Below, piece after piece: positions 42,435 through 57,310 of a stretch of 64,000 nucleotides of DNA (positions are counted from its first letter, which is position 1; every line of letters begins with the position of its first letter). The DNA is from Mucilaginibacter sp. KACC 22773 (GTDB lineage: Bacteria; Bacteroidota; Bacteroidia; Sphingobacteriales; Sphingobacteriaceae): contig NZ_CP117883.1 of NCBI RefSeq assembly GCF_028736215.1, forward strand, positions 3,038,001-3,102,000, read 5' to 3'. The notes beneath the pieces were generated by a model. The model made no database searches. It was not told the origin of the DNA and was given only the letters and a program-made list of their open reading frames with translations. Position numbers and translations under genes: made by a program.

Positions 42435-42537
42435 CCACTGACCACTGACCACTGACCACTGACCACTGACCACTGACCACTGACCACTGACCACTGACCA
42501 CTGACCACTGACCACTGACCACTGACCACTGACCACT
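42435..42537. repeat. Tandem heptamer (CCACTGA)14.7
   Basis: Fourteen complete CCACTGA copies and a partial one run without a break from 42435 to 42537. On the minus strand they read TCAGTGG. The repeat ends inside the TAG stop codon of the desaturase gene (42536-42538). A related AGTGGTCAG lies at 42343-42351 after the SAM hydrolase-like gene. Tandem heptamers of this kind are prone to slippage. Confidence 0.97.
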
Positions 42538-44550: not shown

Positions 44551-46227
44551 TTGAAACACGTTTTTAAGGGAATTCTTTCGCTGCTTAGCGTAACCGAAAA
44601 AAACAGGTTGTTCAGGCTTATCCTGCTCGATCTGCTTATCAGCGTGCTGGATATTGCCTTTTTAGGGGCATTGCTTATCATCATAGGGCTTTATACCTCG
44701 GGCACGCCTGTTCAACATCGTTTATTACAGCTTAACTGGCTTAAACAACAATCTATACTGCCAATTGGTTTATTTATGCTGCTGTATTGCGGCAAAAACT
44801 GGCTTGGCTACCTGATTACCAGGTTTCAGCATCATTTTTTTTACGGGGTAGCATCGCGATTATCAAAAAGGAACATCCTGCATTACCTTAAAGACGAGTA
44901 TATCAAATTTGTCAATGTCGATTCATCTGTACACATCCGCCGTGTAAGCCAGCAGCCTATCGAGTTTAGCCATTATATCCTCAACAATGTACAGCAAATT
45001 ATATCGCAAAGCCTGCTCATTTCATTTACCATCGGTGCCATATTGATCTATCAACCATTGCTGTTTTTTTTATTGCTGCTGGTGTTGTTACCGCCTATAA
45101 TTATCCTGGCCTATTTTATCAAACGAAAATCGAAACAGGTGCGCGAACAAACAAAAACCGCGAGCGAGAAGAGCATCCAGTATTTACAGGAGTCGTTAGC
45201 CGGCTTTATAGAAAGCAACATTTATGATAAGCGTAGTTTCCTGGCCGATAGGTACGCCGGTTACCAGCAGCAGCTTAATAACAATATAGCAACGCAACAA
45301 ACGCTGCAAGGGCTGCCAGCAAGATTGGTAGAGATTTTTGCCATTTTTGGTTTTTTTATCCTGGTGCTGGTTAACAAATGGGCAGTACACGGCGCAGTGG
45401 TTGATGTGCTTACCATTGGCGTATTTATTACAGCTGCTTACAAAATCATTCCCGGTATTATTAAAATCCTGAACAGTATGGGGCAAATAAAAACCTACGA
45501 ATTTACCCTGAATGATTTACTTGCGGTAAAAGAACCCGACGCGTTGCAAAAAGCCGGTACGCTTAATATTGTTGAACCCATCAGTTCTATCCGTTTTCAC
45601 AATGTTTATTTTAGTTACGCAGACCAAGCAGTAGTATCGGGCATTAGCTTCGATGTTTGCGCTGGTGATTTTGTTGGCTTATCGGCAGCCTCTGGCAGTG
45701 GCAAAACAACCATCATTAATTTATTGCTTGGTTTTTTGACGCCTCAGTCGGGTTATATTTATATAGATGGGAAACAAACTGATACCCATAAAAGACAGCA
45801 GTACTGGAAAAAAATAGCTTATGTAAAACAACAGAACTATTTTATTCACGATACCATCCTTAAAAACATTACGCTTACTGATGATCAGGAATATGATACC
45901 GCGAAACTGGAGGAGGCCATATCCTTTTGCGGACTTGTCCCCTTGCTGGCCGGCTATCCCGAAGGCATAAATAAAATAGTGCGCGAAAATGGCAAAAACC
46001 TGAGCGGCGGACAAAGGCAACGCATAGCCCTGGCAAGGGCCTTGTACCACGATTTTGATGTGCTGATCATGGACGAACCATTTGGCGAAATGGACCAACA
46101 GGCAGAGGAGGCTATACTTACCCAACTAAAGCAGTTAACAGCCCAGGGCAAGATCATATTTTTTATAACACACAACATTGCAAGCCTGAGCCATTGCAAC
46201 AAAATAATCCCTTTAATAAATGAGTAA
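44551..46227 (+). CDS. ABC exporter, fused membrane and ATPase domains
   Basis: The 558-residue half-transporter has six membrane helices (about 20-320) and a C-terminal ATPase domain with Walker A ASGSGKTTIINLL, signature LSGGQRQRIALARAL, Walker B VLIMDEPFGEMD and the H-loop ITHNIASL. It probably dimerises to export a lipid-linked, glycosylated or other hydrophobic product. The start codon is TTG; the N-terminal FKGILSLLSVTEKNRLFRL fits other type I exporters, and no earlier ATG is in frame. The next gene overlaps it by 8 bp, so ABC and GT4 genes are coupled. Confidence 0.93.
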   Translation: MKHVFKGILSLLSVTEKNRLFRLILLDLLISVLDIAFLGALLIIIGLYTSGTPVQHRLLQLNWLKQQSILPIGLFMLLYCGKNWLGYLITRFQHHFFYGVASRLSKRNILHYLKDEYIKFVNVDSSVHIRRVSQQPIEFSHYILNNVQQIISQSLLISFTIGAILIYQPLLFFLLLLVLLPPIIILAYFIKRKSKQVREQTKTASEKSIQYLQESLAGFIESNIYDKRSFLADRYAGYQQQLNNNIATQQTLQGLPARLVEIFAIFGFFILVLVNKWAVHGAVVDVLTIGVFITAAYKIIPGIIKILNSMGQIKTYEFTLNDLLAVKEPDALQKAGTLNIVEPISSIRFHNVYFSYADQAVVSGISFDVCAGDFVGLSAASGSGKTTIINLLLGFLTPQSGYIYIDGKQTDTHKRQQYWKKIAYVKQQNYFIHDTILKNITLTDDQEYDTAKLEEAISFCGLVPLLAGYPEGINKIVRENGKNLSGGQRQRIALARALYHDFDVLIMDEPFGEMDQQAEEAILTQLKQLTAQGKIIFFITHNIASLSHCNKIIPLINE

Positions 46228-47275
46228 GCCTGAAGCATTGGTCATATTAACGCCGGGTTTCCCTGCCACCGTTAACGATACCACCTGGGTACCGCCTATG
46301 CAGGGTTTTGTCAGGACTTTAAAACAGCATAATCCAAACATGCATATCGTTGTTATCAGTTTTCAGTACTCTAATACAGCTTCAACATATAACTGGTGCG
46401 GAGTCGAAGTTATAGCCATTGCGGGCAGGGGCAGGGGGCAGGTATTCAGGTTAATAACCTGGCAACGGGTATGGCAAAACTTAAAAAAGCTTCATGCCAG
46501 TTACAAACTTATTGGTTTATTAAGTTTTTGGATGGGGGAGTGCTCCTTTATGGGCAATCGCTTTGCAAGAAAATACGGTTTGCCGCATTATGCATGGCTG
46601 CTCGGGCAGGATGCGAAAGCCGGTAATGACTATGTTAACAGGATAAAACCCGACGGCAGTTCGGTAATCGCGATATCAGATTTTGTGGCAAAGGAGTTCA
46701 GGTTAAATTATGGCATTCAACCGGCGCATATTATCCCTACAGGTATCGATGTAACGCTTTTTGGCGCCGGTGCAGCCCATCGCGACATCGATATTATGGG
46801 TGCAGGTTCGCTTATTCCGCTTAAGCAATATGATCTTTTTGTAAAAGTGATCAAAAGCCTGGTTACCGAATTTCCGGGATTAAAAACGGTGATATGTGGC
46901 AACGGCCCCGAAATGGATAATTTGAAAAAACAAATAAGCAGGCTTGGGCTGGAGAATAACATCGAACTAAAAGGCGAGTTGCCACACCCGGAAGTATTGG
47001 CCATGATGCAACGTTCAAAAATATTTTTGCATACATCGCGCTATGAAGGTTACAGCACGGTTTTAAGCGAGGCTTTATACGCGGGCTGCCAGGTGTTGAG
47101 CCTGGTTAATGGAATGAATACAAGGCCATCTCAGCACCTCGTACCCGATAATGTCGAAGACTTACCGCTTATTATTAAAAAACTGTTAAACGATAAAGAA
47201 TTAAAGCACGAACCTGTGCTAATTTACACCACCGAAACAATAGCGGCCCGCATTACCAGCTTATTTATCCATTAA
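46220..47275 (+). CDS. Family 4 glycosyltransferase
   Basis: The 351-residue protein is a GT-B fold glycosyltransferase. The C-terminal donor domain includes IPTGIDVTLFG, DIDIMGAGSLIPLKQYDLFV, VICGNGPEMDNLKKQI and the EX7E-like KIFLHTSRYEGYSTVLSEALYAG. Such enzymes transfer a sugar from a nucleotide-activated donor. The first half is less conserved, so acceptor is unknown. It overlaps the ABC transporter gene by 8 bp and the convergent GT4 gene by 15 bp. Confidence 0.9.
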   Translation: MSKPEALVILTPGFPATVNDTTWVPPMQGFVRTLKQHNPNMHIVVISFQYSNTASTYNWCGVEVIAIAGRGRGQVFRLITWQRVWQNLKKLHASYKLIGLLSFWMGECSFMGNRFARKYGLPHYAWLLGQDAKAGNDYVNRIKPDGSSVIAISDFVAKEFRLNYGIQPAHIIPTGIDVTLFGAGAAHRDIDIMGAGSLIPLKQYDLFVKVIKSLVTEFPGLKTVICGNGPEMDNLKKQISRLGLENNIELKGELPHPEVLAMMQRSKIFLHTSRYEGYSTVLSEALYAGCQVLSLVNGMNTRPSQHLVPDNVEDLPLIIKKLLNDKELKHEPVLIYTTETIAARITSLFIH

Positions 47276-48373
47276 TTGATGACAAATATCAACCAGGTCG
47301 TCGGCTATGGTTTTAAAGCTTAGCCTTTGGGTAAAATGGCTTAAAACAGATGTCGAGAGCTCTTGCAAATCTACCCCCTCAAGCCCCTTAAGGGTTTCGC
47401 CTAATGCCCCGGCATTCCCCGGTGGATATAAAAATCCATATTGGCCATTTAAGGTGATTTTTTTATACGATGGGATGGTGGTAACAACAGGGATGCAGCC
47501 GCAGGCCATAGCTTCTAATAAGGCATAGCCGCTGCCTTCTTTATGACTGCCCGATATATAATAATCTGCTGCGCTAAACCAGTAAGGCAAGTCGGTATTA
47601 GTTACCTGACCCACTAAAGTGACCGAATTTGATAGCAGGGCAGAAGATGTTATTAATTGCTTTATATCATTTAACAGTGCATCGGTTTGGTAAATCATGT
47701 ACAACTTTGCAGCGGCATTAACGTGCAGGTAATCATGAAAACCGTTTAAAACGGTTAAAGGATCTTTATTTTTATTCAGGTGACCCACCCAAATGAAGTT
47801 TGCTTTACCGGCAATGCCGGTATGTTGTTTTGCCAGGGCTTTATCAATAGGTTTAAAAACGGTAGAAGCTTCTAATAATTCAAATATCCGGGCATCATGT
47901 TTAATAATGTTTTTTTTCTTCCAGGCATCCGCATTCCCGGCCGAAGTGAAAAGGAAGGCATCTGTCATATTGCAGGCTATCTTTTGCAACCGGCCTTTTA
48001 AGCCATCCGAGGGTAATTCGCCATGATGCTGTATAACCAGTTTGAACTTGTTGCTACAAAACAATTTTAAAAACATCACCTGTAAAGGGAATACCAGGCC
48101 CTGTACCAGCACAATATCAGGCTTTAATTTCCGGATAAGAACATGGGTTTTTATAGTGAGAGACCAGAACCTGTTGTGGCCTTTAAAAAAATAATAGGGT
48201 ACGCCGTTCATTACAATATCCTGTTCAAATGTTGTATGCTTTACGAAAGCAAAATCAAGCCTATCCTTAAGGTATGTAGCAAAAGTGAGTGCAGGGGCAT
48301 GGTTTTCTGTTACCTGCTGCGGGCGGGTATAATTTAGATGGGAATAATAAACAAGATCGATCAGCTTTATCAA
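47261..48373 (-). CDS. Family 4 glycosyltransferase
   Basis: The 370-residue GT-B protein has the C-terminal donor domain pattern NFIWVGHLNKNKDPLTVLNGF, DYYISGSHKEGSGYALLEAMACG (EX7E-type motif) and TTIPSYKKITLNGQYGFLYPPG. The N-terminal part is more variable. It is the third and last gene of a leftward group (methyltransferase, amidohydrolase, GT4); the amidohydrolase stop is 2 bp before its start. The donor sugar and product are unknown. Confidence 0.9.
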   Translation of the reverse strand: MIKLIDLVYYSHLNYTRPQQVTENHAPALTFATYLKDRLDFAFVKHTTFEQDIVMNGVPYYFFKGHNRFWSLTIKTHVLIRKLKPDIVLVQGLVFPLQVMFLKLFCSNKFKLVIQHHGELPSDGLKGRLQKIACNMTDAFLFTSAGNADAWKKKNIIKHDARIFELLEASTVFKPIDKALAKQHTGIAGKANFIWVGHLNKNKDPLTVLNGFHDYLHVNAAAKLYMIYQTDALLNDIKQLITSSALLSNSVTLVGQVTNTDLPYWFSAADYYISGSHKEGSGYALLEAMACGCIPVVTTIPSYKKITLNGQYGFLYPPGNAGALGETLKGLEGVDLQELSTSVLSHFTQRLSFKTIADDLVDICHQLMDK

Positions 48374-48375
48374 TT

Positions 48376-49545
48376 TCAGATAATTTGATGTTGTATAAAG
48401 GTAACCGGGAAAACAACACCTGGCAAGTACGATTGAATGGAGGCCATCAACTCCCCGATATTTCCTTCGACATATTTATAGGACTCACCCACCTTTATCA
48501 AACTGAACGATTTTCCTTTTAATGCACCGGCCAGCACAGGCAACAGTTCCTGGTCAAAGAACCTGATGTTCCCTTTCTGGATCACTATTTGGATGTTTGT
48601 TGGCCGTGTAGCAAAAAAGGCGTCATAACGGCCAGCGCCATGGTTTGCTTTCGCGATAACCAGGTCGGCCTGCCTGCCGGCAGCAATTTCGCCGGTATTA
48701 ATTGCCCATGTTTTTGCTGCAGTTTTATTGAGCGATTGGTATAGTTCCTCGTCGGTAAGCATCCCGATGCTACGGGCCATACTAACGTGGTCCCACATAT
48801 TCCAGTTACCTGTAAGGGTGGAATCTGACCCGAAAAGAATATCAGCAAACGCTTTTAGTTTATGTATATCTGCCGTTTTGTTCAACAGGTAAAAGTTCGA
48901 TTCGGGGCACCAAACAATGGCCTTAAAATAAGGGGCCTGTTCTTTGCTCATAGCTACAGCGTGAACGCCAACCAAAGCACGTCCTAATTTATTCCAGCTA
49001 ATCAGTTCATCTATTTCGCGGGTGGCCAGTTCATCTGTCCCTTCACCCGTATGGATAACTACCGGTAGTTTGCGTTTTAATGGATTGTTGAGCCTAAACT
49101 TCCAAAATTTTTCGAGCGCTGCGGAGTGCAGGTCATGCGTTTCCTCAAATATGTTAATCAGGGCATTATCAACATGTACTTGTTGCCCGTGATTTACAAC
49201 GGTAGTAACGCCGCACAGTAAATTTTTATAGATTCCCCAAAGTATACGCTGTTGTCGGGGGATATTGAGCACCGCTGCAATTTCGGCTTTAAACTCCTTG
49301 TGAATATGTGCTCCCCATTCAATATAGTTATTATAAATGTGATTGCCCAGTTGGGGGAAAAGGTCAAAATCAAGATGATCGTGCGAGTTAATCAGGCCGG
49401 GTAAAATGATGGAGTTTTCAAAATACAGCGATAGCTGATCATCGGCGTTTATCATCGATAAACTAACCTGATCAATCTTTTCGCCTTCAATTTTGATATC
49501 AACTGCCCGCCCGCCATCAGCCGGTTTTACATTCCTCAGTATCAT
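48376..49545 (-). CDS. Amidohydrolase superfamily protein (cytosine deaminase-like)
   Basis: The 389-residue TIM-barrel metal-dependent hydrolase shows LPGLINSHDHLDFDL (HxH, His pair), VTTVVNHGQ, PVVIHTGEGTD (His), VGVHAVAM (His), and ILFGSDSTLTG (Asp, near 290), the usual metal ligands. It belongs to the cytosine deaminase/chlorohydrolase-like branch. A hydrolase of this family inside a glycosyltransferase/methyltransferase/radical SAM cluster is unusual and could remove an amide, deacetylate or cyclise an intermediate, but the substrate is unknown. It begins one base before the methyltransferase stop. Confidence 0.88.
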   Translation of the reverse strand: MILRNVKPADGGRAVDIKIEGEKIDQVSLSMINADDQLSLYFENSIILPGLINSHDHLDFDLFPQLGNHIYNNYIEWGAHIHKEFKAEIAAVLNIPRQQRILWGIYKNLLCGVTTVVNHGQQVHVDNALINIFEETHDLHSAALEKFWKFRLNNPLKRKLPVVIHTGEGTDELATREIDELISWNKLGRALVGVHAVAMSKEQAPYFKAIVWCPESNFYLLNKTADIHKLKAFADILFGSDSTLTGNWNMWDHVSMARSIGMLTDEELYQSLNKTAAKTWAINTGEIAAGRQADLVIAKANHGAGRYDAFFATRPTNIQIVIQKGNIRFFDQELLPVLAGALKGKSFSLIKVGESYKYVEGNIGELMASIQSYLPGVVFPVTFIQHQII

Positions 49546-50283
49546 TTACGCTCTTTTTAAATAAATGCCATAAATAACCGGGAAGCCAACGTATTTTTCG
49601 TAAACATGCAGGGCGTTGGCATCGGCGTAAAATTGTTTCATGGTTTCATCAATTTTTATTTCCTGCTGTGTTATCAGGTTAAAACCATCGTTTGATAGCG
49701 CTTGCTTTATGGTAAATATAGGATGTAAATAGTTACGCACAGCTATTAATGCATTACCATGTTTAAAGGTACGCTTACCGCCAAGTGCCAGCATATGCGG
49801 GTGAAAATCGGTGATGATGATTTCGCCACCCGGTTTAAGCAAACGGCACCAGGCATGCAGGGCTTCGTCTATATCTTCAATATGGGCAACGGTGAGTGTT
49901 GACACTATCATATCAAAAGAAGCATCCGGGATATCAGAAAATAAATTATCGGCAATTTTAAGGGTACTTGCCTTCGGATATTTTTCTTTTAATTTTTTTA
50001 ACATTCCGGCCGATACATCAAAGCCTGTTAGCGTCGCCGGCTGTTTATTAAATATAGCGGGCCATTGCCTGCCGGTACCACAGCCTACATCAGCTATAAA
50101 TTTGCCTTTCAGCTCCAATCCTTCCAACAGACCTTTAAAAAGTTTTTCGTCAAGGTGCAGCATTAAGTTGCCCGGCTGCATATCGTGGTCAGACGCCCAC
50201 AGGTCGTAAGCCTCTACAACGCCTTTTTCGGTTACAGGGGGGGCTATTTTGCTTTTTATATAGTTTTTGGCGGTTGCCAGCAT
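49546..50283 (-). CDS. Class I SAM-dependent methyltransferase (1)
   Basis: The 245-residue enzyme has a Rossmann fold: motif I FIADVGCGTGRQW, motif II TGFDVSAGMLKKL, motif IV DMIVSTLTVAHIEDID and motif V CRLLKPGGEIIITDFHPHM. It resembles the Methyltransf_11 group. Opening residues include VVEAYDLWASDHDMQPGN, as in small-molecule methyltransferases. First gene of the leftward methyltransferase-amidohydrolase-GT4 group. The target of methylation is not known. Confidence 0.9.
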   Translation of the reverse strand: MLATAKNYIKSKIAPPVTEKGVVEAYDLWASDHDMQPGNLMLHLDEKLFKGLLEGLELKGKFIADVGCGTGRQWPAIFNKQPATLTGFDVSAGMLKKLKEKYPKASTLKIADNLFSDIPDASFDMIVSTLTVAHIEDIDEALHAWCRLLKPGGEIIITDFHPHMLALGGKRTFKHGNALIAVRNYLHPIFTIKQALSNDGFNLITQQEIKIDETMKQFYADANALHVYEKYVGFPVIYGIYLKRA

Positions 50284-50465
50284 CGCACGCGTTTTTATAA
50301 CAATAACGGGTACCGGGGCTTTAGGGTTGCCCCGCCCTTTTTATTTTGCCACAGGCAACCCCGGCGGTTTGGCTGTCGTAATATATGATGAATGGGTTAA
50401 TTATCGATCTGGGTTGGCAGTGGTGGGAGTGAAGCCCATCGCTGCTGTTTAACTGCGAATGCTAC

Positions 50466-50549
50466 ATGAATAAGATATTACTTTATAGCCCTAAAAGCAC
50501 CAATGCCAGGCGCCGCGTACCAAACTATATTTTAAACTTAGCCCAATAA
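50466..50549 (+). pseudogene. Remnant of a B12-binding radical SAM gene start
   Basis: A 27-codon ORF encodes MNKILLYSPKSTNARRRVPN then YILNLAQ. Its beginning resembles the N terminus of B12-binding radical SAM proteins (KILLYNPK..., with RxPxxILN), like the one encoded at 51421-52893 nearby. It stops at TAA three bases before the methyltransferase start. It looks like the truncated 5' end of a second radical SAM gene left by deletion. Similarity is judged by eye only. Confidence 0.5.
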
Positions 50550-50552
50550 CAA

Positions 50553-51299
50553 TTGAACGCTGAAAGAAACGATATTGCTATAAACCAGAGTCCGATAGCC
50601 AACGATGCATTTGAGGCCATGTATGTTGCTGTGCGCGATAAAGAAGGCAGGCTGTATAGCGATAAACAAGTAATGCGCCTGCCGGATGTTGATTCCGGCC
50701 ACCGGTATTATAAAGAATGGAAAATGAGAAAGCATTCTGCCGGACAGCTAATCGCTTTCCTTAAAAAACAACGGGGCCCATTGGATATCCTGGAGGTTGG
50801 TTGCGGCAATGGCTGGCTTTCGGCTAAACTTGCTAACATCCCCAAAGCTAAAGTAACCGGGATAGACCCTAACAGGATAGAGATTGAGCAGGCCAATAGG
50901 GTTTTTAAAAAAAGGAACCTTAAATTTATCCATGCCCCGTTCAGCGGCACTGCGTTTAACGAAGGAATTAAATTTGACGTGATTATTTTTGCCGCATCCA
51001 TCCAATACTTTCCATCGCTTAAGGAAGTTATGAATAATGCATTTGGTTTGCTGACCTCCACCGGGCGGGTACATGTACTCGATACCCATTTTTATCATTC
51101 GGGTGAAGTTGAAACCGCAGCCGAAAGGAGTATGGATTATTTTACATCAATAGGTTTTCCGGAAATGGCGCAGTATTATTTTCATCATCCTTTGAAACAG
51201 GTAATGCATCTTAAGCACAAGGTAATGTTTAATCCTACTGCGTTTTTTAATAAGATATTCAAAAAAAGTGTTTTTTACTGGATAAAAATAAAATCCTGA
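50553..51299 (+). CDS. Class I SAM-dependent methyltransferase (2)
   Basis: The 248-residue methyltransferase has motif I ILEVGCGNGWLSAKL, TGIDPNRIEIEQA, DVIIFAASIQYFPSL and a later DTHFYHSGEVETAAERS. The TTG start at 50553 follows directly after the radical SAM remnant. The C terminus (about 210-248) is basic and slightly hydrophobic (FNPTAFFNKIFKKSV), possibly membrane-associated. It is part of the rightward block with the radical SAM and third methyltransferase genes. Target unknown. Confidence 0.88.
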   Translation: MNAERNDIAINQSPIANDAFEAMYVAVRDKEGRLYSDKQVMRLPDVDSGHRYYKEWKMRKHSAGQLIAFLKKQRGPLDILEVGCGNGWLSAKLANIPKAKVTGIDPNRIEIEQANRVFKKRNLKFIHAPFSGTAFNEGIKFDVIIFAASIQYFPSLKEVMNNAFGLLTSTGRVHVLDTHFYHSGEVETAAERSMDYFTSIGFPEMAQYYFHHPLKQVMHLKHKVMFNPTAFFNKIFKKSVFYWIKIKS

Positions 51300-51302
51300 C
51301 TA

Positions 51303-51416
51303 ATGAACAGCCAAAGTGTATTACAAACTTTTAAGGGTAATGAAAATCAAAAGCAGCTTACCAAAGTAAAACTTGTTTGCTCGCTTAACCTGTCGCCATT
51401 AACCCGTCTATCTTAA
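51303..51416 (+). CDS. Possible 37-residue ORF between methyltransferase and radical SAM genes
   Basis: ATG-initiated ORF encoding MNSQSVLQTFKGNENQKQLT and KVKLVCSLNLSPLTRLS. It fills the spacer almost exactly and begins three bases after the methyltransferase stop. No family is recognised. It may be a short peptide, or a chance frame. Its position within the cluster is the only support. Confidence 0.3.
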   Translation: MNSQSVLQTFKGNENQKQLTKVKLVCSLNLSPLTRLS

Positions 51417-51420
51417 TTTT

Positions 51421-52893
51421 ATGGACCAGCTAAATAATATATTGTTCACTCATTCCTACTTTTTACGGTTCGATCCCAAGCAATGGGCAATAGGGCAGCC
51501 GTACGCACCGCTGGGTACACTATATGCCGCATCCAATATGCGGATGCATGGTTATAACGTATCTTTTTTTGATAACATGTTTTCGTATACGGCGCATGAT
51601 GTTGTGCCCGCCATAACGCAAAATAAACCCGGTTTTTTTGTGATTTATGACGATGGGTTCAACTATCTCACCAAAATGTGCCTCACCAATATGCGCGAGG
51701 CCGCGTTTAAAATGTGCAAGCTGGCCAAAAAGTATGGTTGCATCGTAATTGTCTCCAGTTCCGACTCGACAGACCGGTACAAAGAATATTTGAACGAAGG
51801 CGCCGATTTTGTAATCATAGGCGAGGCTGAACAAACACTGTTGGAACTTACCAACGCCATCAAAAGTGGTATTGAAGATATTGCACAAATACAGGGACTT
51901 GCTTATGTCAAAAATAACATCCCCTTTAAAACCATTGCAAGGCCGGTATTGAAAGATCTGGATACCTTGCCACTGCCCGCCTGGGATTTGGTTGATATTA
52001 CCCCTTACCGCGAAAGCTGGCTTAAACATGCGGGATATTTCTCGATGAACGTTGGTACTACCCGTGGCTGCCCTTTCAAATGCAACTGGTGCGCTAAACC
52101 GATTTATGGAAACCGCTACAACTCCCGCAGTGCCGAAAATGTGATTGCCGAGCTTAAGCTTTTGAAAACCATGTTCAACATGGACCATATTTGGTTTTGC
52201 GACGACATTTTTGGATTGAAACCCGGTTGGGTAAAACAGTTTGCCCAACTGGTAAAAAAGGAGGGGCTGAAGTTCAGGTACAAACTCCAGTCGCGGGCAG
52301 ATTTGTTGCTGGACGATGAAGATGTGGCCGCGCTGGCCGCATCCGGCTGCGAAAATGTATGGATAGGCGCCGAGAGCGGTTCGCAAAAGATACTGGACGC
52401 GATGGATAAAGGCACCAGTATTGAACAGATAGCGACAGCCACAAAACTGATGAAAAAGCATGGCATCAGGCCATCCTTCTTTATTCAGTTTGGCTACCCC
52501 GGCGAAACAAAAGATGATATCGCCCTTACTATCAATATGATCAATAACCTGTTGCCCCATGAAATCGGGATATCTGTATCGTACCCATTGCCAGGGACTT
52601 TATTTTATGAAAAAGTAAAAGCCGACCTGCGCCAAAAAACAAACTGGACAGACTCCGACGAGATGGCGCTGATGTTTAGCAACACGTTTAGCGCTGCGTA
52701 TTATAAGCAGCTGCATCGCTACGTGCATCAAAATTACCATGCCCACCTGGCCAAAAACAGCCTGGTAAAACTCCTGAAAAATCCATTTAAACCCAGTTTA
52801 AAACGTATCAGGAAGGCCGCGTCGTTTATTTACCATGCCCCGGCAACTTTGATAGAAGGGTTTAAACTTCAAAAACTGGAAAACACCGTATGA
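51421..52893 (+). CDS. B12-binding radical SAM enzyme
   Basis: The 490-residue protein has an N-terminal cobalamin-binding-like domain (about 1-150; IVIVSSSDSTDRYKEYL, DFVIIGEAEQTLLELT) and a central radical SAM domain with the cluster motif RGCPFKCNWCAKPIYG (CxxxCxxC, near 215-222) and the later WIGAESGSQKILDAMDKG, FFIQFGYPGETKDDI, and GISVSYPLPGTLFYE. Such class B enzymes often methylate unreactive carbon or phosphorus, or perform other radical reactions; the product is unknown. It overlaps the following methyltransferase by 4 bp (ATGA). Confidence 0.92.
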   Translation: MDQLNNILFTHSYFLRFDPKQWAIGQPYAPLGTLYAASNMRMHGYNVSFFDNMFSYTAHDVVPAITQNKPGFFVIYDDGFNYLTKMCLTNMREAAFKMCKLAKKYGCIVIVSSSDSTDRYKEYLNEGADFVIIGEAEQTLLELTNAIKSGIEDIAQIQGLAYVKNNIPFKTIARPVLKDLDTLPLPAWDLVDITPYRESWLKHAGYFSMNVGTTRGCPFKCNWCAKPIYGNRYNSRSAENVIAELKLLKTMFNMDHIWFCDDIFGLKPGWVKQFAQLVKKEGLKFRYKLQSRADLLLDDEDVAALAASGCENVWIGAESGSQKILDAMDKGTSIEQIATATKLMKKHGIRPSFFIQFGYPGETKDDIALTINMINNLLPHEIGISVSYPLPGTLFYEKVKADLRQKTNWTDSDEMALMFSNTFSAAYYKQLHRYVHQNYHAHLAKNSLVKLLKNPFKPSLKRIRKAASFIYHAPATLIEGFKLQKLENTV

Positions 52894-53738
52894 GCCAAAT
52901 CAGCTTTGTAAATAATGAAGCAAGCGCATCAGATGCCTTTAGCAGGCAATCTGCGGTATTTGACGAAATTTATTCGGGCAATACCATTATCAATTACAAA
53001 AGGGCAAGGGTAAGGGACCATGTACTTCAATATTTAAAACCGGAGGGCAGTATACTCGAATTGAACAGCGGGACAGGGGAGGATGCCATTTTTTTTGCCC
53101 AACAAGGGCATTATGTTCATGCTACAGATATATCAACAGGGATGCAACACGAGCTTCGGCAAAAAGCAATGCCCTATAAAAACCGTATAAGCACCGAAAT
53201 TTGCTCATTTACCCAACTGGATCAATTAAAACAAAGAGGCCCGTATGATCATATATTTTCCAACTTTGGCGGCCTGAACTGTACCGGTGAGCTGGAAAAA
53301 GTTTTGTTATCATTCGATAGTCTTTTAAAACCCGGCGGTAAGGTAACGTTAGTTATCATATCGCCATTTTGCCTGTGGGAAACATTGCTTGTTTTTAAAG
53401 GACGGTTCAAAACCGCGTTCCGGCGATTTTTTAGCAGCAAAGGAAGATCTGCCCATATTGAAGGTGCTTACTTTAAGTGTTTTTATTATAATCCATCATT
53501 CATTATCAATACTTTACAAAAGTCATTTAAAGTATTAGGTATTGAAGGCCTGTGTACAATAGTGCCACCATCATACATAGAGGGTTTTGCCGAAAAGCAC
53601 CCTAAAGCATATAAATTCCTGAGCAGCAAAGAAGACCGGCTAAAAAGCGCCTGGCCCTGGAAGTATATCGGCGATTACTTTATTATTTCGCTGGAGAAAA
53701 ACAGCACACACGAATTTCACGAATTTACATCGGTTTAA
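52890..53738 (+). CDS. Class I SAM-dependent methyltransferase (3)
   Basis: The 282-residue methyltransferase has motif I ILELNSGTGEDAIFFAQQG, HATDISTGMQHELR, FSNFGGLNCTGELEKVLL and LLKPGGKVTLVII. Its C-terminal residues EFHEFTSV are encoded by a CACGAATTTCACGAATTT-type intergenic repeat (53706-53727), so the last ~10 residues may not be native. The ATG overlaps the radical SAM stop by 4 bp, so the two are translationally coupled. It is the last gene of the rightward group. Confidence 0.88.
   Translation: MSQISFVNNEASASDAFSRQSAVFDEIYSGNTIINYKRARVRDHVLQYLKPEGSILELNSGTGEDAIFFAQQGHYVHATDISTGMQHELRQKAMPYKNRISTEICSFTQLDQLKQRGPYDHIFSNFGGLNCTGELEKVLLSFDSLLKPGGKVTLVIISPFCLWETLLVFKGRFKTAFRRFFSSKGRSAHIEGAYFKCFYYNPSFIINTLQKSFKVLGIEGLCTIVPPSYIEGFAEKHPKAYKFLSSKEDRLKSAWPWKYIGDYFIISLEKNSTHEFHEFTSV
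53706..53727. repeat. ACACACGAATTTCACGAATT repeat at a gene end
   Basis: This repeat encodes the last residues of methyltransferase 3. The same family is present at 28082-28265 and, reversed, at 53938-53975. Confidence 0.7.
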
Positions 53739-53937
53739 TGTTAACCTTGTTAAAATATAAGGCATTGGTTATTAAATAGTTATATCCTATCGTATTTAAA
53801 ATGTGTTAAGTTATGTTAACCTACTTTAAATGCGTTGCCCCTGCCTGCACAATTAGGCCCTAAACCAGAGAATTAACTATTTACTTTAGAGTTCTTGTCT
53901 ATAATATCCATTCGGATAGCCGGAGAACCTGCCATGT

Positions 53938-53975
53938 TATTCGTGAAATTCGAAAAAATACGTGTGAATTCGTGT
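53938..53975. repeat. Reversed GAATT/CGTGT repeat before the EamA gene
   Basis: GTGAAATTCGAAAAAATACGTGTGAATTCGTGT is split over 53944-53975 and is inverted relative to the repeats at 28082-28156 and 53706-53727. It lies in the 5' region of the EamA gene. Confidence 0.7.
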
Positions 53976-53995
53976 CTCTAAATTGGTGTTTATCC

Positions 53996-54003
53996 TACCT
54001 TTG
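53996..54003 (+). promoter_or_regulatory. -7 promoter box for the EamA gene
   Basis: TACCTTTG matches TAnnTTTG, 18 bases before the ATG at 54022, and supports that start against an upstream GTG in frame. Confidence 0.6.
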
Positions 54004-54021
54004 CGGCCATATAATACGCCC

Positions 54022-54900
54022 ATGGTAAAAAAAATCCTTCCTGGTTTATTGTTTAGTATTCTTTGGGCAACCGGGTCTGTCGCTGTAAAATTCGGAATCC
54101 GCTCGGCAGATGCACTAATATTGGCCAGCATCCGGTTTATTGCCACCGGCTTCATATTCGGTCCTTTTTTTGGCCTGGTCAGGAATGAACGTTTCTGGCC
54201 GCTAAAAAGCGAATGGAAAAGCATCGTCATTTACGGCTTTTTATGCACCACTTTAACTTTAGGTTCGTTTTTTGCCGCCCAGCGATACGCATCGGCCGGT
54301 ATCAGTATGTTGTTTATAGCGGTTGCGCCTTTACTAATCGCCCTTTTTTCGTCAATAATTGTTAAACGGAAACTTACCAGGTTCGAAATTATTGGGATGC
54401 TGATTGCATTTACCGGCCTGGTGCTGGCTTCTGCAGCGGCGCTGCCTAATGCCAGTATAAAACCACTGGGCATTATATTGCTGCTTATTTACATTTTTGC
54501 CTATGCATCAAGCAGCGTTTACTTCTCTACATTAACTATTAGCTTGCCTAATGTATCGTTCAATATCTGGCAGGTATTTGTCGGTGGCATAATTTTGCTG
54601 CCGTTTTGCCCATTGTTTGGGCAGCAGCATGTACACCACATTGACATCAATCTGTTTTTATCCCTTTTTTGGCTAATTGTGGTACTCTCATTTATCGCCA
54701 ACCAATTGTGGCTATACCTTGTTGGCCAGGATGCCGTAACGGCCGGTACGTGGCTTTATCTTACGCCTGTATTTGGGTACGGGTTTGGTTACCTTTTACT
54801 TGGCGAACAAATCTCGGTTTACGCTATAGCGGGAACTATCTTGGTGGTAACCGGGCTTGTGGTATCTAAAATTAAAGCTGTACAGCAGGTTTCAGAATAA
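54022..54900 (+). CDS. EamA/DMT family transporter
   Basis: The 292-residue membrane protein has ten transmembrane helices and two EamA repeats (1-130 and 145-292), with the opening LPGLLFSILWATGSVAVKFGIR. The drug/metabolite superfamily exports or imports many small compounds; substrate is not inferable. I use ATG 54022 because a -7 box lies 18 bases upstream. The gene separates the methyltransferase cluster from the polysaccharide operon on the other strand. Stop at 54900 is 9 bp from the convergent nucleotidyltransferase gene. Confidence 0.92.
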   Translation: MVKKILPGLLFSILWATGSVAVKFGIRSADALILASIRFIATGFIFGPFFGLVRNERFWPLKSEWKSIVIYGFLCTTLTLGSFFAAQRYASAGISMLFIAVAPLLIALFSSIIVKRKLTRFEIIGMLIAFTGLVLASAAALPNASIKPLGIILLLIYIFAYASSSVYFSTLTISLPNVSFNIWQVFVGGIILLPFCPLFGQQHVHHIDINLFLSLFWLIVVLSFIANQLWLYLVGQDAVTAGTWLYLTPVFGYGFGYLLLGEQISVYAIAGTILVVTGLVVSKIKAVQQVSE

Positions 54901-54909
54901 ACTATCTTT

Positions 54910-55872
54910 TCAATGGGCTACACTATGCTGGTTTTCGGCAAGCAATTGTATTATTTTATTTTGAAAGCGCCTAATCAGGTTCGACTGAAAATTTCCCGGA
55001 TCGGGTTTGGCACAATGTTTACCGGTAACTATGGCCAGTAATACGCCATGATCATTAAGCTTCTTTTGCCTGGTTTTCTCACTCCACCTGCGCGATGTTA
55101 TATTCATAAAGCCATCATCCAGTAAATCGCCCAGCTTATTGTTAAGTAAAAATTCAGCCAGGCCTTTTAACCAATTATTTTTTAGCGACTTAGCGGTTGA
55201 TACCCGCATAATATGATTAGGCAGGTATTTGCGCGTCCAAACGTTGGCTGCAAAAAAATCAGCAAAAGTAGTGTCGCCCTGGATGGGTATCAAGGTAACT
55301 ACTTCTGTAGCGGTATATATATTTTTTTCGGCTATTTCAAGCGCTTGTTCATCTACATAATAGTTCATGCAAAAGCAATGTTGCTTATTTACCAGGAAGG
55401 TTAGCTTCTTAAAAAAATGCATCAGGGTACGCGCTACCCAAAGGCGGTTTGCCGCAGTAATTATAAACAGGTCGATATCCGATCGGTCGTCGGCATAATT
55501 TTTAGATAGCGAGCCCGAAATAGCGATACCCCGCACGTAAGGGAAATTAATAAGTAAGCTGCCAACCTTGCGTGCTGTATTAATCATTTCAATAGCCTTT
55601 TGGTTTCCTTTGTTACGGCGCTGCGCCAGGTATTGATCGTTTTTTAAACAGTAAAACTTATCAAAACGGTATACCATCCGGGTTTCTATCAGGCAGGTCA
55701 TAACGTCGTCAAAAGTCTTGCGTTCATATTTTACCTGCAAAAACAAACATATCTCTTCGCGCGTAAGCGGGTAATTAAACACATCAAAGTAGGCCAGCGT
55801 AGTTAATATGTTCTTTTTAATTTCTGACACAGTATTGATGCTTGGTTGATTAAAAACGGACCTGATCTGCAT
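54910..55872 (-). CDS. Winged-helix plus nucleotidyltransferase-fold protein
   Basis: The 320-residue protein appears to combine an N-terminal winged helix-like region (20-95; LTTLAYFDVFNYPLTREEI) and a polymerase-beta-like nucleotidyltransferase domain (105-215), whose signature is GIAISGSLSKNYADDRSDID with two Asp ligands (DDRSDIDLF). The C-terminal ~100 residues are Lys-rich and helical. It is the last gene of the leftward polysaccharide operon. Sugar nucleotidyltransferases do not have this motif; it resembles antitoxin- or tRNA-nucleotidyltransferase-type enzymes. Function here is unknown. Confidence 0.8.
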   Translation of the reverse strand: MQIRSVFNQPSINTVSEIKKNILTTLAYFDVFNYPLTREEICLFLQVKYERKTFDDVMTCLIETRMVYRFDKFYCLKNDQYLAQRRNKGNQKAIEMINTARKVGSLLINFPYVRGIAISGSLSKNYADDRSDIDLFIITAANRLWVARTLMHFFKKLTFLVNKQHCFCMNYYVDEQALEIAEKNIYTATEVVTLIPIQGDTTFADFFAANVWTRKYLPNHIMRVSTAKSLKNNWLKGLAEFLLNNKLGDLLDDGFMNITSRRWSEKTRQKKLNDHGVLLAIVTGKHCAKPDPGNFQSNLIRRFQNKIIQLLAENQHSVAH

Positions 55873-55884
55873 ATGTATAGTATT

Positions 55885-55993
55885 AAGTCGTAAGTTCTGC
55901 GTCTTGAGTTCTGAATCTTATCCCGCAGGTGCCGGGTTTGTAACTCAGGACTTTCGATTAAAAACTATCCGCCATTTCACAGGCGGTACAACA
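55885..55993. repeat. TAAGTCGTAAGTTCTGCGTCTTGAG repeat before the polymerase
   Basis: TAAGTTCTGCGTCTTGAG and TTCTGAATCTTA at about 55885-55919 resemble the arms of the inverted repeat at 44400-44482. The rest of the spacer holds nothing else recognisable. Confidence 0.6.
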
Positions 55994-57310
55994 TTAGTAT
56001 GACGTAAGCGCTAAACTGTTGGTTGCCACTTCATCTAAATATTCCGGGCTTTTATTTTTGACGATTTCTTCAGGCTTCACTTCGCCGCCGGAAAACAACA
56101 GCAAGGCAAAAAACAAGCTGTAAAACATAACACCCTTATCGGCATCCAGCACATTTTCTGAAAGCGAAACAATGGTAATCAGCAGCATAAAGCTGATAAA
56201 TACCACGTCCTTTTTTAGGATAGCGGTTTTAAAACCGTATGCCAGCGTTACCAAATAAACAAGCAGCCCCCAAATGCCCGATTTTACCACGAAGCTGAGG
56301 TATTGGTTGTGCGAATTCAAGTTGGCTAAAAATGAGTCGTACATTTTAGCCTTAAAAAATTCATCGTGTAACAGTTTCTGCTCAGAACCGGAGCCATGAC
56401 CAATTAAAGGCTTCTGCTTAATAAGTTGGGCTACCACGTGCCAGCGGGCCAGGCGCGAGTCGGTACTCTCGCCGGGTTTAAATGCCGAAAAATCATCTGT
56501 CAAACTGGTTAAGTAGCGTTCTTTGAATGAGGACACATTTAAAATTGTTGCAAAAGCCAACGCCGATATTGCTGCGCCGGCCGTTATAAACTTCAGCCTG
56601 CTTTTACCCTTAAGCAGGCAATACGGGAGTACCAGGTTAATAATTATAAATAAAATCGCCAGAATTGATTTTGAACTTAGCTGGATAAGCCCGCATAACA
56701 ATATGAAGCTGCAAATACTGCAAATTAATTTTACAGGCAATGTTAGCGGTTTAAACAATAGCGCTAACAGGTATACCAATGCTACCACCAACTGTAATGA
56801 AAAAAAAGTGGCATGTATATCAAGCGGCTCCGAGAAATTATGATTGGTAAATGCCGGCGAAAAAATGGTTTTAAGCGGCAGATGATAATATTTAATGGTG
56901 ATAAGGGCATCAATATATAGGTAAATGATGGTTGCCGTACACACAATGGCAAAAGCAAATAAAAAATTAGCCCGATATTTTTTTAAGTCGAGGCCGTTTA
57001 ATAAAAATACTGGCGGCAAAATCAGAATGGGTAAGCGCAATACCCATTCGTTAAACGCTTCGGAACGGTAAAGGGAGTAAACCGTGGCAATAAGCGTAAC
57101 AAAAAAAACAGATTGCAGTACTACAGTTTTTAATGTGAGCATAATCCTTAGCTTTTCCTTTTGCAAATGGATAAACGTATGCACAATAAAACTAATGAGT
57201 ATAATATGGCTGTAAAACCTGTCAAACGGCAGGCTTGCCATAAGTAACATGATGTGGTAATAACTTACCTTATTAGCGTTATTATCATTTATCAGCAATA
57301 ATTGCTTCAT
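55994..57310 (-). CDS. O-antigen ligase/polymerase-like membrane protein
   Basis: The 438-residue protein has about ten hydrophobic segments and the family core WaaL/Wzy_C (IGHGSGSEQKLLHDEFFKAKMYD, NLNSHNQYLSFVVKSGIWGLL), with conserved His residues in HGSG and NSHNQYL. Members ligate O-antigen or polymerise repeat units at the periplasmic face. I choose MKQLLLINDN at 57310 as the start; the longer frame to 57358 would overlap the upstream glycosyltransferase by 74 bp. It is one of two such proteins in the operon. Confidence 0.87.
   Translation of the reverse strand: MKQLLLINDNNANKVSYYHIMLLMASLPFDRFYSHIILISFIVHTFIHLQKEKLRIMLTLKTVVLQSVFFVTLIATVYSLYRSEAFNEWVLRLPILILPPVFLLNGLDLKKYRANFLFAFAIVCTATIIYLYIDALITIKYYHLPLKTIFSPAFTNHNFSEPLDIHATFFSLQLVVALVYLLALLFKPLTLPVKLICSICSFILLCGLIQLSSKSILAILFIIINLVLPYCLLKGKSRLKFITAGAAISALAFATILNVSSFKERYLTSLTDDFSAFKPGESTDSRLARWHVVAQLIKQKPLIGHGSGSEQKLLHDEFFKAKMYDSFLANLNSHNQYLSFVVKSGIWGLLVYLVTLAYGFKTAILKKDVVFISFMLLITIVSLSENVLDADKGVMFYSLFFALLLFSGGEVKPEEIVKNKSPEYLDEVATNSLALTSY

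Follow-up and report, generated by a model that had tools for sequence, protein, structure and literature searches.

Probable in-frame remnant of a B12-binding radical SAM gene, one of two apparent gene remnants in a single Mucilaginibacter operon

Two shortened genes in one operon

The 27-codon open reading frame at positions 50466-50549 of the window (a stretch of 64,000 nucleotides from the soil bacterium Mucilaginibacter sp. KACC 22773, contig NZ_CP117883.1, positions 3,038,001 to 3,102,000) is with high confidence an in-frame remnant of a radical SAM gene, RSAM1, and a second gene, RSAM3, appears to have been cut in the same operon and the same lineage. Comparison with related genomes indicates three radical SAM genes in the ancestral cluster, of which this species kept one (RSAM2) and lost two (RSAM1 and RSAM3). 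A preliminary description of this DNA had proposed an ancestor with two radical SAM genes, one of them lost; the loss stands, while the numbers become three and two. Bacterial gene remnants left by deletion, i.e. pseudogene decay, are of a known kind. As in such decay, a homologous fragment lies at the orthologous place and drifts unconstrained, with the intact gene present in relatives. Unlike in the usual case, two genes of one operon are cut, frame and close spacing are kept and the neighbours are constrained. What is seen here is ordinary gene decay, if unusually tidy and instructive: two enzymes are removed from one operon, the rest is constrained and a sister genome holds the intact genes, making it a clean natural case. 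It also suggests that the RSAM1 and RSAM3 steps of the pathway are dispensable, as opposed to a core of RSAM2 and MT_C. The features are:

48376-49545, minus strand: amidohydrolase-family protein (context; Pfam)
49546-50283, minus strand: MT_A, divergently transcribed methyltransferase (context; Pfam)
50284-50465, no strand: divergent intergenic region 5' of stub1 that contains the inverted-repeat arms 50324-50331 and 50354-50361
50466-50549, plus strand: stub1, probable 27-codon RSAM1 remnant in which codons 1-26 can be recognised before a CAA and the TAA (matches the RSAM1 N terminus of relatives; lineage omega 1.05)
50553-51299, plus strand: MT_B, SAM-dependent methyltransferase with a TTG start (Pfam; TTG aligned with TTG in all nine relatives laid out; omega 0.160)
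51303-51416, plus strand: stub2, probable 37-codon remnant of RSAM3 (radical SAM/SPASM), matching RSAM3 codons 1-11, 47-55 and 333-349 (omega 1.21 on this lineage)
51421-52893, plus strand: RSAM2, surviving B12-binding radical SAM gene (Pfam Radical_SAM 1.7e-21; B12-binding 9.3e-06, below the curated cut-off)
52890-53738, plus strand: MT_C, SAM-dependent methyltransferase sharing 4 nt with RSAM2 (omega 0.066, not shifted)

On the plus strand the order is thus stub1, MT_B, stub2, RSAM2 and MT_C, with stop-to-start gaps of +3, +3, +4 and -4 nt.

Identity of stub1

The translation of stub1 is MNKILLYSPKSTNARRRVPNYILNLAQ followed by a stop (27 residues). The stop codon ends at 50549 and the TTG start of MT_B lies at 50553, leaving a 3-nt gap; coordinates and translation thus bear out the 27-codon frame, ending 3 nt before a methyltransferase, that had been described. 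Searched against 149 Mucilaginibacter genomes, the 27 residues find matches in 95 (E <= 0.1), and in 90 of these the matching frame is open for at least 500 residues. The five shorter frames are the two stubs of the host genome of the window (G000, a single contig of 7.54 Mb) and of G126 (Mucilaginibacter sp. OK283), and frames of 102 aa in G137, 268 aa in G098 and 146 aa in G136, the match in G098 beginning about 750 nt from a contig edge. The 27-codon short form is found only in G000 and G126 (2/149), which belong to one species.

A Pfam scan of the 27 residues alone gave no match, even at E <= 10, so the tie to radical SAM proteins is made through the relatives only. The similarity to these relatives exceeds chance and points to homology. 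Pfam identifies both a B12-binding (7.5e-08) and a Radical_SAM domain (1.3e-10) in the intact orthologue of G023, the combination that marks B12-binding radical SAM proteins (PF02310 with PF04055); stub1, in contrast, corresponds to the first 26 residues only and has neither a cysteine nor a complete domain. The resemblance to the start of such a protein, as put forward in the preliminary description, is therefore substantiated. The same text had named two outcomes that would speak against it, namely no homologue at radical SAM N termini and conservation of the short frame in many genomes; homologues do occur at these N termini, and the short frame is limited to one species. Against NCBIfam, RSAM1 of G023 reached no curated cut-off, nor did the best scores of any of the ten proteins scanned. 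Queried with RSAM1, the PDB yielded three matches, all distant, the best being a putative apramycin biosynthetic oxidoreductase (6fd2) and TokK (7kdx).

Intact genes in relatives

The cluster was laid out in nine relatives (G023, G017, G014, G096, G125, G054, G078, G003 and G046), all of which show the gene order RSAM1-MT_B-RSAM3-RSAM2-MT_C. In each, RSAM1 is a gene of about 499 aa directly 5' of MT_B, i.e. the intact gene stands where the preliminary description expected it in orthologous clusters. Since it precedes MT_B in every one of them, a radical SAM gene was in all probability lost by deletion here, as had been suggested. A search of G000 and G126 with RSAM1 of G023 (E <= 1e-5) returned a single match in each, inside RSAM2, at 31% and 30% identity, respectively. 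No copy of RSAM3 was found in either at E <= 1e-10, a threshold at which 90 of the 149 genomes do match. A move of the two genes to another place in the genome was rejected on these grounds. Three marks of a deletion remnant of RSAM1 hence coincide in stub1, namely homology to one portion of a longer gene in orthologous position, loss of constraint (see below) and the lack of an intact copy elsewhere at this threshold.

Two further irregularities were seen in relatives. RSAM1 of G137 is broken (L095, 9008-9354 and beyond), with two pieces in different frames covering residues 1-116, followed by unrelated genes; this genome has no match to RSAM2 (E <= 1e-100) or RSAM3 (E <= 1e-10), and a rearrangement or an assembly chimera is possible. 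RSAM2 of G046 (L070) carries an in-frame TAA after codon 334, possibly a broken core gene or a sequencing error.

The second remnant

Between MT_B and RSAM2, the nine relatives carry a further gene, RSAM3, of about 349 aa. Its G023 version has Radical_SAM and SPASM domains, and the motif SACNCRCVMCDIW is present in all nine. In the window, MT_B and RSAM2 are 121 nt apart and this space holds stub2, which aligns without gaps to three blocks of RSAM3 from all nine relatives, so that the start and the end of the gene can both be made out in orthologous position. Weakest of the three is the middle block: local DNA alignment beat 200 of 200 shuffles against G023, G017 and G096, whereas against G014 170 of 200 shuffles scored equal or better. 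At the residue level, GNENQKQLT versus DNKNLKQLT, it fits all nine. The blocks imply losses of 35 and 277 codons from RSAM3, of which the first would take out the cysteine motif. The two joints sit at the shared codons AAG and ACC, and the same two scars, stub1 and stub2, are found in G000 and G126.

These shared scars bear on the idea that the lineage never had the whole genes but received partial copies, or that the stubs are assembly errors. RSAM1, RSAM3 and MT_B are indeed patchy across the genus, as such an origin would allow. However, a codon tree of RSAM2 from 11 genomes places G000 and G126 as sister to the intact G023, with 100% bootstrap on the relevant splits; stub2 retains both ends of RSAM3 plus a middle piece; and the scars recur in two separate assemblies which differ at 48 places in 50300-53738. 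Partial copies or an assembly error are accordingly regarded as extremely improbable, and the stubs are treated as remnants below.

Deletion sizes and reading frame

The start of RSAM1 and the TTG of MT_B are 87 nt apart here and 1512 nt apart in G023, giving a net loss of 1425 nt (475 codons). On its left side the deletion begins at codon 26 or immediately behind it. On the right, the MT_B leader varies between relatives, which makes both the edge and a descent of the TAA from the former stop of RSAM1 uncertain; seven of the nine have 12 nt between the RSAM1 stop and the aligned TTG, G003 has 13 nt and G046 has 11 nt. All three inferred deletions preserve the frame, which by random frame would happen in 1 of 27 cases, or in 1 of 9 if the RSAM3 scar is one complex event. 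Once this species had split from the G023 lineage, RSAM1 lost nearly all of its length and kept 27 codons, and RSAM3, in the same operon and lineage, was reduced to 37 codons by apparently two further in-frame deletions. The operon probably still works, through a pathway shortened by two radical SAM steps.

One explanation is that of passive scars: the deletions kept the frame by chance and the frames are merely unbroken so far, with no selection involved. The RSAM3 joints at the shared AAG and ACC fit this well, as they offer a mutational cause for the kept frame. That every inferred deletion is frame-preserving and that both stubs stop 3-4 nt before the next start fit it less well. Together with the omega values and drift simulations given below, we lean slightly towards this explanation.

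Selection on the stubs and their neighbours

Omega was estimated with a branch model in our own script, with approximate optimisation and branch lengths scaled from the RSAM2 codon tree, so that p-values are indicative. On this lineage, omega is 1.05 for stub1 versus 0.045 elsewhere (p 9e-10; against 1, p 0.89) and 1.21 for stub2 versus 0.117 elsewhere (p 8e-8; against 1, p 0.57). As a control, 18 windows of 26 codons from RSAM2 were treated likewise; all had an omega of at most 0.17 and none was shifted at p < 0.05. With the stem and tips separated, values of 1.17 and 0.78 were obtained for stub1 and of 1.71 and about 0 for stub2, for which a separate tip omega fits better (2dlnL 7.6). This last value arises because stub2 is identical in G000 and G126, whereas their stub1 copies differ by two replacements and one silent change. 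As stub2 lies within a 421-nt stretch free of differences (51195-51615), its identity is read as a locally similar patch rather than as constraint on stub2, recent constraint being possible.

Whole genes were compared on the same lineage, using nine to eleven genomes per gene. MT_B (0.160), MT_C (0.066), the ABC transporter (0.100), the nucleotidyltransferase-like gene (0.085) and the O-antigen-ligase-like gene (0.176) are not shifted. Omega is raised over background, yet far below 1, for MT_A (0.234, p 0.0004), the amidohydrolase (0.196, p 0.014), GT2 (0.262, p 6e-5) and GT1 (0.239, p 1.5e-5). Based on these estimates, both stub peptides are shown to drift as if unconstrained on this lineage, with MT_B, RSAM2 and MT_C still under constraint. 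The raised values fall together in 46220-50283 (GT1, GT2, amidohydrolase and MT_A; 0.20-0.26 versus 0.10-0.13), MT_B, the RSAM2 windows and MT_C not being raised; this left arm may have been relaxed after both gene losses.

An omega of about 1 in both stubs implies that the peptide sequences are not selected, as expected for passive scars. It also argues against a functional small peptide whose sequence is retained, be it a leader, a regulator or a peptide precursor. In favour of such a peptide one can cite a frame that is open in two genomes with few changes, and a stub2 that is identical in both, albeit within the difference-free stretch. However, seven of the 26 stub1 residues do not occur at their position in 28 N termini from relatives (one of them from the broken gene of G137), and the short form is restricted to 2/149 genomes. 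With an omega near 1 and so narrow a distribution, a functional peptide is disfavoured and considered very unlikely.

A possible role as ribosome relay

Another way to account for the open frames starts from the coupling of neighbouring genes. Ribosomes leaving the stubs would re-initiate 3 nt further on at MT_B and 4 nt further on at RSAM2; a deletion would then be tolerated if it kept the frame and the stop-start spacing, whereas polar deletions would be lost. That the stubs persist as open frames through such re-initiation is possible, though we think it somewhat doubtful. The same tentative standing is given to the general form of the idea, in which selection on a coupled operon steers gene loss and genes on their way out are trimmed to the shortest ORFs that can still act as relays, with the peptide free to change and start, frame and stop kept. 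If true, some short ORFs that precede bacterial genes would be fossils of this kind. Their origin as decay products kept as ribosome relays is testable.

Coupling at +3 nt has been reported for galT/galK and rplK/rplA, as stated in a review (PMC12548453). Given this, stubs ending 3 and 4 nt before the next start, i.e. within a few nt, are well placed as putative relays. The same review contains the proposal that short ORFs may serve only as ribosome delivery. The stubs resemble the translationally coupled short upstream ORFs described there in that the frame ends 3-4 nt before the next start; they differ in being apparent relics of enzyme genes, for which coupling is putative. According to PMC10666635, the last 15 nt of the upstream gene are enough for coupling in E. 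coli, gaps of about 20 nt nearly abolish it, and overlaps are stressed as the usual coupled arrangement. Bacteroidetes are said to be without Shine-Dalgarno sequences (PMC6847099). Titles and abstract openings from the literature on gene decay with coupling, polarity or remnants, with most subscription journals outside this scope, mention no relic ORFs kept as relays.

Several results count against a relay. One is the chance of 1 in 27, or of 1 in 9, that the frame is kept at random. In simulations, short frames remained stop-free in 56-80% of cases after 6-15 random substitutions, and in 36-64% with the ATG also kept, so that frames of this length often survive drift, as passive scars would. 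Other lineages lost RSAM3 without leaving space for a stub (see below). In folding stability, 50440-50620 falls below most of its shuffles (z +1.72, with 194 of 200 as stable or more so), and with the RNA around the MT_B start unstructured, unfolding by ribosomes is not obviously needed. The preliminary description had offered remnant and retention for coupling as alternatives. The remnant part holds up; that the two exclude each other does not, given that the peptide appears to drift neutrally while the close-packed operon architecture is kept.

Distribution across the genus

RSAM2 was detected in 98 of the 149 genomes (E <= 1e-100), RSAM3 in 90 (E <= 1e-10) and MT_B in 60 (E <= 1e-20). Eight of the 98 genomes with RSAM2 lack RSAM3 (G000, G126, G028, G041, G043, G097, G098 and G148). 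Four of the six outside this species were laid out (G041, G028, G148 and G043), leaving out G097 and G098. The layout search (E <= 1e-8) is blind to short stubs, and intergenic gaps were therefore measured separately. G041, G028 and G148 keep RSAM1 without MT_B or RSAM3, and G043 keeps MT_B with no RSAM1, RSAM3 or MT_A seen in the layout at E <= 1e-8. With RSAM1-RSAM2 gaps of 26, 2 and 14 nt in the first three and a 4-nt overlap of MT_B with RSAM2 in G043, there is no space for an RSAM3 stub in these four. The RSAM1-RSAM3 gaps in G079, G030, G066 and G053, which have no MT_B in the cluster, are 25, 20, 33 and 9 nt. In G116, RSAM3 is divergent (49%) and RSAM1 finds no match. Among the genomes examined, stubs are seen only in this species, and the cluster genes present themselves as a shuffled accessory set around a stabler core.

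Homologues of MT_B (about 50% identity) were noticed away from the cluster in G030 (L098) and G053 (L100), and alone in G060 (L094), a genome in which RSAM2 finds no match at E <= 1e-100. It is possible that MT_B is mobile or that a paralogue of it exists.

Surroundings of the operon

Between MT_A and stub1, at 50324-50361, the arms GGGTTGCC/GGCAACCC enclose a 22-nt loop; this inverted repeat is possibly an operator. Comparable arms can be seen by eye in the alignment of relatives, but a repeat search in G023 gave a different pair. The Bacteroidota promoter consensus has five exact matches in the window, none of them in 50284-50465, a count no higher than expected by chance. Rfam gave no match at the gathering threshold in 46000-56000; with this and the z of +1.72, a structured RNA at the stub1/MT_B start was rejected. 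Farther upstream, at 42435-42537, a perfect CCACTGA tandem array (7-bp unit, 14.7 copies, 100% match) lies between two genes. On the minus strand, a mechanical ORF translates it as GQWSVVS repeats; the array is a possible phase-variable or mutable spot.
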